Assembly: GCA_903870165.1 (NCBI GenBank)
Contig: CAIQBW010000008.1
Span: 1-64,000 of the forward strand
Source: an uncultured Methylophilaceae bacterium
Lineage (GTDB): Bacteria > Pseudomonadota > Gammaproteobacteria > Burkholderiales > Methylophilaceae
Length of the DNA: 64,000 bases
Reading direction: 5' to 3'
Positions 61,097 through 64,000 of this stretch are shown here, in pieces. Both the position numbers and the translations under genes were made by a program. The first letter of the stretch is position 1. Each line of letters begins with the position of its first letter. The notes beneath the pieces were generated by a model. That model was not told where the DNA came from, made no database searches, and saw only the letters and a program-made list of their open reading frames with translations.

Positions 61097-61181
61097 GCGG
61101 CTGTGGTGGAATTGGTAGACACGCCATCTTGAGGGGGTGGTGACGAAAGTCGTGAGAGTTCGAGTCTCTCCAGCCGCACCA
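61097..61181 (+). tRNA. tRNA-Leu (anticodon GAG), CCA encoded
   Basis: Acceptor GCGGCTG/CAGCCGC, D arm GTGGAATTGGTAGACAC, anticodon loop TTGAGGG, long variable arm, GTTCGAGTC, ACCA. Confidence 0.95.
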
Positions 61182-61314: not shown

Positions 61315-61854
61315 TTGGATAATTTTAAGCTGAAATCATCTTTGTCTCAGGGAATTAATCCTCAAATTGCTGTTGATTTAGGTCATCAACTAAAGTCCGC
61401 CAGGACTGCCAAAAATCTTTCTATTACGATTGTTTCTAGAGCGCTTGTCTTGACAGAGAGGCAGGTCAATGGGTTGGAGGTGGGAGAGTTTTCGTCTTTC
61501 TATACTCCCGACTTTTATGTTCGTGCACTAAAAAAATATGCAGTCTTCCTAGGTTTAGCTGAAGATATTTCGTTATTGTCTGATTCGCTTTTAGAGATGC
61601 CGGCAATTAGCTTGCATGAGAGGCTTGTTAAAAAATTAGGTTTGTGGTCTTCTATATCGAATCAATTTAAAGCAAGTAATAGCTATGTTTTTGAGATTCT
61701 ATTTTTTAAAATTAATAAGCGTTTGTTTAAAATTGTTATTTTGATGATTTTGTGTTTCTTCGTGTTTTGGGGATACATTCAAAGTGAACGTAAAGCGGCT
61801 GAAGGAAAGCCTATTGATCTACACCGAGAAGAAGTTGAGAAAGGGCACCTCTAA
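61315..61854 (+). CDS. RodZ-like HTH (HTH_25) protein with one TM segment and very short periplasmic tail
   Basis: LGHQLKSARTAKNLSITIVSRALVLTERQVNGLEVGEFSSFYTPDFYVRALKKYAVFLGL; TM KIVILMILCFFVFWGYI; TTG start. Confidence 0.75.
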   Translation: MDNFKLKSSLSQGINPQIAVDLGHQLKSARTAKNLSITIVSRALVLTERQVNGLEVGEFSSFYTPDFYVRALKKYAVFLGLAEDISLLSDSLLEMPAISLHERLVKKLGLWSSISNQFKASNSYVFEILFFKINKRLFKIVILMILCFFVFWGYIQSERKAAEGKPIDLHREEVEKGHL

Positions 61855-62078: not shown

Positions 62079-62480
62079 ATGAGTGATTTAATGATGGAAG
62101 ATAAAGAAGGAAATGTATTAATTGGTAAGGGCGTTACCATTACTGGGAATATAACCCTTGCTGGGTCAATATATGTCTATGGGGATGTTAATGGTGAAGT
62201 GGTTGCTCAAGAAATTCATGTCGGAGAAGGCGGAAAAGTTACTGGTGATATCAAGGTCGATGTTGCTGATATTCGGGGTGATGTCTCAAACTCATTGGAG
62301 GTTAAGAAATCTATAGTGGTTAGATCAACAGGCAAGATTGTAGGCAAGCTTATTTATCAGTCTCTTGAAATCGAGACCGGGGGTGTGATTGATGGTCACA
62401 TTGAAAAGGCTAAATCTAAAAATGACTTCGTTACGCTTGTGGCAAGTAATCCGTTAGCAAAGACAGCAACGAGTGATTGA
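62079..62480 (+). CDS. Bactofilin family protein (copy 1)
   Basis: LIGKGVTITGNITLAGSIYVYGDVNGEVVAQEIHVGEGGKVTGDIKVDVADIRGDV, beta-helical polymer-forming repeats. Confidence 0.92.
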   Translation: MSDLMMEDKEGNVLIGKGVTITGNITLAGSIYVYGDVNGEVVAQEIHVGEGGKVTGDIKVDVADIRGDVSNSLEVKKSIVVRSTGKIVGKLIYQSLEIETGGVIDGHIEKAKSKNDFVTLVASNPLAKTATSD

Positions 62481-63522
62481 TTTAGCCTCAAAGCTGAAAA
62501 GCTGCATTTTTTCACCGAAAAAAATGATCGCTGAAATTTGGAGTCACGATTACAAAGATCTCAGGTTGATCTTTGAGCAGTCCGATGAGTTACATTATTT
62601 TTACATCAGAGCAAAAACGCAGAAAATCGCCGCTAAAATGCTTACGCTTTCTCTATTGGGTTTGCTATTTGTTATCTCAGCATTACTGATTCACAATAGC
62701 GTCTTGGTATTGAGGTATGGCCGTCTAGAGGCTTCCAATATTGAAGCTCAGCAAAAAAAACAGGAAGCGATTGAGGCGCTAGAGACATTGTCTAGTTCAG
62801 ACCATGTTGAAGGTAAAAATTTGTCACAAGATCAACTTTTGAATATGGCAAAGATTTATCAGGACAAATTAAAGAAAACTAAGTTATTGGTGCAGTATTC
62901 GTCTCATGAGTTGGTTCAGGCTAATAAAGCCCTAGAGTCCGGCCTTAAAGCGGCCGGGATTTCAAGAAGCGACTTGGGTAAAGTTCTGCAAGACAAACAA
63001 CCTGCCGGACGTGGAGGCCCGTCCAAGGAGCTTTGGCCGGGCTCAGATAAAGATTTAAGCACCTACAAAGATGGGCTGTTAGAAAATCAAAATATTAAAG
63101 ATTTTATCAATGCGTTACCTTCTACAAATCCTGTGAGTGCCGCATTCATTACCTCCAAATTTGGGCCAAGAATTCATCCGGTCACCGGAAAGCTCACTAT
63201 GCATGAGGGATTGGATTTTGTTCCTAGCTTTGATCAAAATGCAAAAACTGTGTTGCCCGGTATTATTGAGTCAGCCGAATATGATCCTGCAGGCTACGGA
63301 AAAGTGGTGCTAGTCTCCCATCCACACGGCATAAAAACTTTGTACGGTCACTTAGATTCAATTTATGTGGCTAAAGGGCAGAAGGTTGAGGCTGGAACTG
63401 TGTTGGGCAAGATTGGAAATACCGGCTTGTCAACTGGCAAGCATTTGCATTTTGAAATTTTAGTGAATGATACAAAGGTAAATCCCTCAATTGTTATGGA
63501 AATGGCGAAAAATGTTCAATAA
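62473..63522 (+). CDS. M23 family metallopeptidase, N-terminal TM plus coiled coil
   Basis: SKFGPRIHPVTGKLTMHEGLDF (HxxxD), LYGHLDSI, TGKHLHFEI (HxH). Confidence 0.95.
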   Translation: MIDLASKLKSCIFSPKKMIAEIWSHDYKDLRLIFEQSDELHYFYIRAKTQKIAAKMLTLSLLGLLFVISALLIHNSVLVLRYGRLEASNIEAQQKKQEAIEALETLSSSDHVEGKNLSQDQLLNMAKIYQDKLKKTKLLVQYSSHELVQANKALESGLKAAGISRSDLGKVLQDKQPAGRGGPSKELWPGSDKDLSTYKDGLLENQNIKDFINALPSTNPVSAAFITSKFGPRIHPVTGKLTMHEGLDFVPSFDQNAKTVLPGIIESAEYDPAGYGKVVLVSHPHGIKTLYGHLDSIYVAKGQKVEAGTVLGKIGNTGLSTGKHLHFEILVNDTKVNPSIVMEMAKNVQ

Positions 63523-63928
63523 ATTTAAAACACAAAGTAGCAGCAAGATTGATAACGTAGAGGCTGGTGACTTAGATCTAGTTGCTGATCTTGAACCCCT
63601 GGAGGATAGTGTTGTTTCACAAAAGCCCACCATTATTAGCGAAGGAGCAATCTTTGATGGCAATATTAAAGTGGCTGGTGCTTTGCATTTGGAAGGTAAA
63701 TTTAAGGGCAACATTAAAGCGGCAAAGGTCACTATCGCTAAGGGTGGTAACTTTAATGGTAAATTAGAAGCGGAAGTCTTAACTATATTTGGCGTAGCAA
63801 AAGGTGAGATTTCTTGTTCGAATTTAACTTTAAATAACACAAGTGATGTCTCGGGTAAGCTAGTCTATGAAAAGATTGTTGTTGATGCTGGGGCATCTAT
63901 CTCAGGTGAACTGATTCATAAGGTTTGA
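63512..63928 (+). CDS. Bactofilin family protein (copy 2); ORF opens at 63491
   Basis: IISEGAIFDGNIKVAGALHLEGKFKGNIKAAKVTIAKGGNFNGKLEAEVLTIFGVAKGEI. Confidence 0.92.
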   Translation: MFNKFKTQSSSKIDNVEAGDLDLVADLEPLEDSVVSQKPTIISEGAIFDGNIKVAGALHLEGKFKGNIKAAKVTIAKGGNFNGKLEAEVLTIFGVAKGEISCSNLTLNNTSDVSGKLVYEKIVVDAGASISGELIHKV

Positions 63929-63936
63929 TTAACGTA

Positions 63937-64000
63937 ATGTCTACCCAAAATACAGATACATCTTATATATCAAAGATTTTTAATAATAAGACTTTTAAAG
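63937..64000 (+). CDS. Start of a further CDS truncated by the window edge
   Basis: ATG 9 nt after the bactofilin stop: MSTQNTDTSYISKIFNNKTFK..., same direction. Confidence 0.5.
   Translation, partial: MSTQNTDTSYISKIFNNKTFK

Follow-up and report, generated by a model that had tools for sequence, protein, structure and literature searches.

A bactofilin-M23 peptidase-bactofilin operon with overlapping genes in Methylophilaceae: an uncommon layout of a known cell-shaping module

The window, by which we mean the entire 64,000-nucleotide stretch analysed here (positions 1 to 64,000 of contig CAIQBW010000008.1 of an uncultured Methylophilaceae bacterium), carries near its end an operon in which an M23 peptidase gene lies between two bactofilin genes, bacA and bacB, with a third bactofilin gene, bacC, directly behind them. 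The operon arranges a known cell-shaping module in an uncommon way and is not a new kind of machine, and the best reading, drawn by analogy, is that it would work like a known system, through local wall remodelling by a bactofilin-linked peptidase. The initial annotation of this DNA had proposed a dedicated bactofilin/M23 wall-remodelling module, a view that conserved gene order and coupling of the genes support.

The window is part of contig C8 of genome G000, a small genome of 1.54 Mb that is 82% complete. The three annotated open reading frames are present as described, all on the forward strand: bacA (62079-62480; 133 aa; Pfam Bactofilin 1.2e-20), the gene for an M23 (LytM-fold) peptidase (62473-63522; 349 aa; Peptidase_M23 3.1e-26, aa 243-338) and bacB (63512-63928; 138 aa; Bactofilin 6.1e-21). 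The true start of bacA may be the ATG at 62094 instead of 62079, giving a protein of 128 aa, since relatives start at that methionine. Both predicted gene overlaps were found, 8 bp between bacA and the M23 gene (GTG start at 62473) and 11 bp, out of frame, between the M23 gene and bacB (63512-63522; ATG at 63512). A further co-directional gene had also been predicted, which understated the case: a search of the genome identified it as a third bactofilin, bacC (148 aa; forward strand; Pfam 7.4e-19; alternative start TTG at 63925), that straddles the window end (63937-64000 in the window, full gene C8:63937-64383). The largest intergenic gap within the four-gene set is 8 bp. The bactofilin polymerisation domain (PF04519) is present in all three bactofilins, far over the Pfam cut-off, and the bactofilin profile matched Caulobacter crescentus BacA (2n3d). 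A promoter and terminator scan gave nothing useful.

From its N-terminus, the M23 protein has some 53 aa of cytoplasmic tail, a single transmembrane (TM) helix, an extended helical part and, at the C-terminus, the LytM domain. Its annotated membrane anchoring agrees with a single TM segment at about aa 54-76 by hydropathy (peak at aa 56-74) and helix model, the cytoplasmic orientation of the tail being assumed from the periplasmic location of the peptidase. The zinc motifs are intact, as originally claimed, with HEGLD (H244, D248) read directly at 63202-63216 and HLH (H324, H326) at 63442-63450 on the forward strand, and H244-E-G-x-D248, H283, H293 and H324-L-H326 are invariant in an alignment of the operon M23 proteins. 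By its domain and its HxxxD/HxH motifs the protein is a LytM-family endopeptidase, with peptidoglycan cleavage as its putative activity. The AlphaFold2 model of the peptidase domain has pLDDT values mostly of 72-94, and the best Foldseek match of the predicted LytM domain as well as the best PDB sequence match was Helicobacter pylori Csd1-Csd2 (5j1l). The H. pylori CcmA-Csd1-Csd2 system, which thus provides the closest solved structures and likewise has a bactofilin-linked M23 peptidase, places two M23 proteins around one bactofilin, whereas the window has one M23 protein between two bactofilins.

Within the cytoplasmic tail, the conserved segment YKDLRLIFEQSDELHYFYIRAKTQ (aa 27-50; 62551-62622, forward strand) is a candidate site of bactofilin docking, and the residues W23, D29, R31, I33, E35, L40, H41, A47 and Q50 of the tail are invariant in four lineages. 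In the BacA-LmdC systems of Hyphomonas neptunium and Rhodospirillum rubrum (PMC10945521), the bactofilin and M23 genes are adjacent as in the window, and overlapping in H. neptunium, and LmdC resembles the window protein in being bitopic with an N-terminal cytoplasmic tail and a LytM domain; that operon, however, has one bactofilin where ours has three. The N-terminal tail of LmdC binds BacA by a cytoplasmic beta-hairpin, with R25-H26-L27 and R30-S31 being important in the R. rubrum protein (PMC10945521). Compared with these published residue positions only, the window tail (R31-L32-I33, S37) is a partial match with the same spacing of arginine, hydrophobic residue and serine, and this R-x-[LI]...S likeness is a suggestive candidate sign of docking, no more. 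AlphaFold2 predicted no beta-hairpin in the tail but low-confidence helices, the alignment for this part being absent or shallow.

Among 150 Methylophilaceae genomes, that of the window included, nearly all have bactofilins, mostly in single copy, and five carry the bacA-M23-bacB operon, four of them as distinct versions and the fifth as nearly a copy of the window. Only G058, G029, G051 and G037 share the N-terminal half of the window M23 protein. The order bacA-M23-bacB was read in G000, G029, G051 and G037, so that the M23 gene has a bactofilin gene on both sides in four genomes, and M23-bacB-bacC was read in G058, whose contig stops short of bacA and also cuts the M23 gene. Of the five carriers, bacC was seen in G000 and G058 only. 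A public contig labelled uncultured Methylophilaceae is near-identical to the window (L005; 93% identity), and in a scan of genome contigs the M23 genes found besides this one had no bactofilin match alongside. With a profile of the N-terminal 216 aa of the M23 protein, the window itself was the only match in 398 genomes of the order and 399 of the phylum, a draw that excluded the other four carriers, with a loose first pass that may miss diverged tails; no wider occurrence of the sandwich thus emerged by this route.

At the M23/bacB junction all five operons read GC(G/A)AAAAATGTTCAATA, with the 11-bp overlap joining the C-terminus of the M23 protein (AKNVQ) to the N-terminus of BacB (MFN). 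Since all five operons preserve it despite an identity of only about 34-53% for M23 and BacB across operon lineages, the overlap is not due to chance, and this low identity elsewhere in the operon proteins indicates that selection acts on the junction itself or on the protein ends it encodes, or on both. The bacA/M23 junction is an 8-bp overlap in G000 and G037, and a 2-bp gap separates the two genes in G029 and G051. Comparison of G000 with its close relative G058 gave dN/dS values of 0.09 (M23), 0.21 (bacB) and 0.18 (bacC), i.e. purifying selection. Fixed stoichiometry, which the initial annotation read from the gene overlaps, is plausible.

Three types of genomic neighbourhood surround the five operons. 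The G037 copy sits between secG/tRNA-Leu and nuo and adjoins a gene whose product has an Arm-DNA-binding domain of the integrase type; the G000 copy comes after the same secG/tRNA-Leu, with nuoA on another contig; in G029, transposase-like ORFs flank the operon, according to their translations. Between G000 and G037, which belong to the same genus, the operon proteins are 38-46% identical and RecJ, TpiA and SecG 76-82%. Horizontal movement or independent acquisition of the operon is likely. A search of plasmids returned distant bactofilins only. As regards window positions 61097-61181 and the secG/nuo junction, secG, tRNA-Leu(gag) and nuoA are contiguous in three other genera checked, but in the genomes checked from the window's genus neither secG nor this tRNA turned up within 1.5 kb of nuoA, some of these loci ending at contig ends. 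The variable genes that fill the secG/nuo gap suggest a hot spot for accessory genes.

One explanation for such a setting is that the cluster moves between genomes as accessory or mobile cargo and now does little, the M23 protein being a generic hydrolase that ended up between bactofilins. The patchy occurrence (5/150 genomes), the transposase-like and integrase-type neighbours in G029 and G037, and the contrast in identity with housekeeping proteins in two genomes of one genus fit this explanation, but gene order and the out-of-frame overlap survive deep divergence, the dN/dS values are 0.09-0.21 and the catalytic motifs are intact, and we regard cargo as improbable.

The initial annotation named a RodZ-like anchor upstream of bacA; the gene there (61315-61854, forward strand) encodes a 179-aa HTH_25 protein (3.7e-9) with a single TM segment at about aa 137-155, and its assignment as RodZ was rejected because it has no RodZ_C domain (Pfam), the RodZ_C protein of the genome being encoded at G000:C10:65308. 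In G037 an HTH_25 gene is near the operon in reverse orientation, and none was seen beside the operon in G029 and G051. The HTH_25 gene is a loosely linked neighbour and not a constant one, and the case for a RodZ-like anchor is weak. Downstream of bacC, G000 has a gene for a META-domain lipoprotein-like product (L004:3461-4276, i.e. C8:64460-65275), a LysM/FimV_core-like gene in which the Pfam match to LysM is sub-threshold and that to FimV_core near-threshold, a DUF4156 gene and then glycosyltransferase genes. The META lipoprotein-like gene occurs in seven of the 150 family genomes, all of the window's genus, with bactofilins present or absent; as a genus-specific gene also found in genomes without bactofilin, it was rejected as a component of the module. 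At L004:6196-8250, on the reverse strand, one chain joins a GT2 glycosyltransferase domain and a radical SAM/SPASM domain.

The initial annotation also considered a polar appendage or envelope-spanning structure, for which the module would be a wall-opening device, be it for secretion, a pilus or a polysaccharide. The glycosyltransferase genes, which begin about 2.8 kb 3' of bacC on the opposite strand, and a type-I-secretion-like gene set near the G029 operon, recognized from its translations, are in line with such a device. The neighbours nevertheless vary by lineage, and no envelope-machine gene is common to the operons; the idea found no support and appears unlikely.

In order Burkholderiales, a BacA profile search of 398 genomes gave a clear top group with E below 1e-22, consisting of eight genomes (G199, G243, G172, G218, G458, G506, G481 and G212) from five families other than Methylophilaceae. 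A BacB gene directly adjoins a BacA gene in all eight, in the same order as in the window; G506 and G481 each have one extra BacA-like copy without adjoining BacB. Six of the eight clusters include an M23 gene, and the same six also hold a third bactofilin, but the M23 gene lies between bacA and bacB in none of these eight non-Methylophilaceae clusters. In a bactofilin tree, BacA proteins cluster together (84/84), as do BacB proteins, that of the window included (99/93). Among the M23 proteins, those of the operons make up a separate clade (95/90), distinct from most of those in the other bacA-bacB clusters (89/81). These latter proteins have a short cytoplasmic segment (MQ-[LF]-[IF]-x-[IV]-[ST]...) in contrast to the tail of about 53 aa in the window. 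The Burkholderiales pairs thus resemble the window in having orthologous, adjacent BacA and BacB, mostly with a third bactofilin and a nearby M23 gene, and differ in that the M23 gene is not enclosed and its peptidase domain belongs to other clades. Since BacA and BacB are orthologous across families and the operon M23 proteins form their own clade, the bacA-bacB scaffold pair appears old, and the layout with M23 in the middle is a Methylophilaceae version of it; the separate clade also means that the operon peptidase may have been recruited separately from the pair.

The two subfamilies differ at their N-termini. The bactofilin membrane-targeting consensus is MFSKKKK, which is not universal (PMC12448750). 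BacB proteins mostly start with MF or IF plus K/R, resembling this consensus, and BacA starts do not; in the window, MFNKFK of BacB fits at sequence level, and BacA and BacC do not. Short proteins with an M23-type N-terminal segment and a TM segment and no peptidase domain are encoded at L067:6521-6952 (G033), L109:6078-6446 (G506) and L111:6260-6628 (G481), each adjoining a BacA-like bactofilin, and resemble peptidase-less docking proteins. In G506 (L108:5978-8213) and G481 (L110), three bactofilins in tandem are directly followed by a ParA-like gene, as read from translations, and an M23 gene lies at a distance of about 1 kb, a setting that resembles the bactofilin-ParABS linkage of Myxococcus xanthus. 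The conjugative plasmid pMsip01 of Methylovorus glucosotrophus carries parA and parB followed by two other genes and then a bactofilin (L128:3360-4387), the hypothetical gene 5' of the bactofilin overlapping it by 4 bp, and on a Gemmobacter aquarius plasmid (L129:3785-5516) a bactofilin adjoins a gene for a 'rod shape-determining protein' (MreB-like).

Could the scaffold serve chromosome or plasmid positioning, with the M23 protein as a side function? In M. xanthus BacNOP-PadC (PMC5703909), a three-bactofilin operon like the one here, the client of BacNOP is an adaptor resembling ParB that serves chromosome positioning, and no M23 protein is named in the passages considered. The ParA-like gene behind the G506/G481 triplet, which includes bacA-bacB, and the parAB neighbourhood of the Methylovorus plasmid bactofilin point the same way. 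Against this, no ParA, ParB or ParBC gene was recognized in or beside the operon of G000, G058, G037, G029 or G051, the place of a ParBC adaptor after bacC being taken by the META, LysM/FimV_core-like and DUF4156 genes, and an M23 protein with intact catalytic motifs inside the operon fits wall work, which makes positioning a very improbable role.

Bactofilin genes commonly lie next to M23 genes, as published for 226 species (PMC10945521), and it is only the layout with M23 between two bactofilin subfamilies that is rare. Rhodomicrobium vannielii (PMC10259793) also has several bactofilin paralogs, which interact and one of which is suggested to co-polymerise; it differs in that one paralog is a cadherin-like fusion and the term M23 is absent from that paper. 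Our literature search found no paper joining bactofilin with Methylophilaceae or Polynucleobacter. The two-subfamily scaffold and the M23-in-the-middle operon appear undescribed within the literature searched, most subscription literature and the published supplementary list lying outside the search.

Local wall remodelling of the Csd1/LmdC type, on a bactofilin scaffold that docks the peptidase, is the probable function of the module. In such a model the bacA-M23-bacB genes would be co-translated, BacB would attach to the inner membrane by its N-terminal MFNK peptide and then polymerise, and BacA, which has no such peptide, would join BacB as a co-polymer or second layer, probably together with BacC. 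The M23 protein, spanning the inner membrane once, would dock on the scaffold by its conserved cytoplasmic tail, and the scaffold would thereby gather the periplasmic endopeptidase at one site, where cutting of peptidoglycan cross-links would bend or bound wall growth, as with Csd1/CcmA and LmdC/BacA. Docking, co-assembly, enzymatic activity and the effect on shape are what we infer here. A more specific version, which we consider possible but doubtful, is that BacA, lacking a membrane anchor peptide, and BacB, which has one, are distinct subfamilies inherited together in Burkholderiales whose filament is obligatorily mixed or layered, the peptidase being made between them in a fixed ratio and docked at their interface.

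Bactofilins are usually regarded as homopolymers whose paralogs may interact, and the adjacency of BacA and BacB across six Burkholderiales families, that of the window included, makes obligate hetero-assembly directly testable, the out-of-frame overlaps offering a natural way to approach the ratio of scaffold to enzyme. Since genome G000 keeps MreB and a RodZ_C protein, the module would modify and not replace the elongation machinery. Six of ten searched genomes of the window's genus are without any bactofilin, including the single-contig, 99%-complete G020, and any shape role would be dispensable, because the operon is missing from most genomes of the genus. For the family, this distribution shows an optional shape module, gained and lost within Methylophilaceae.
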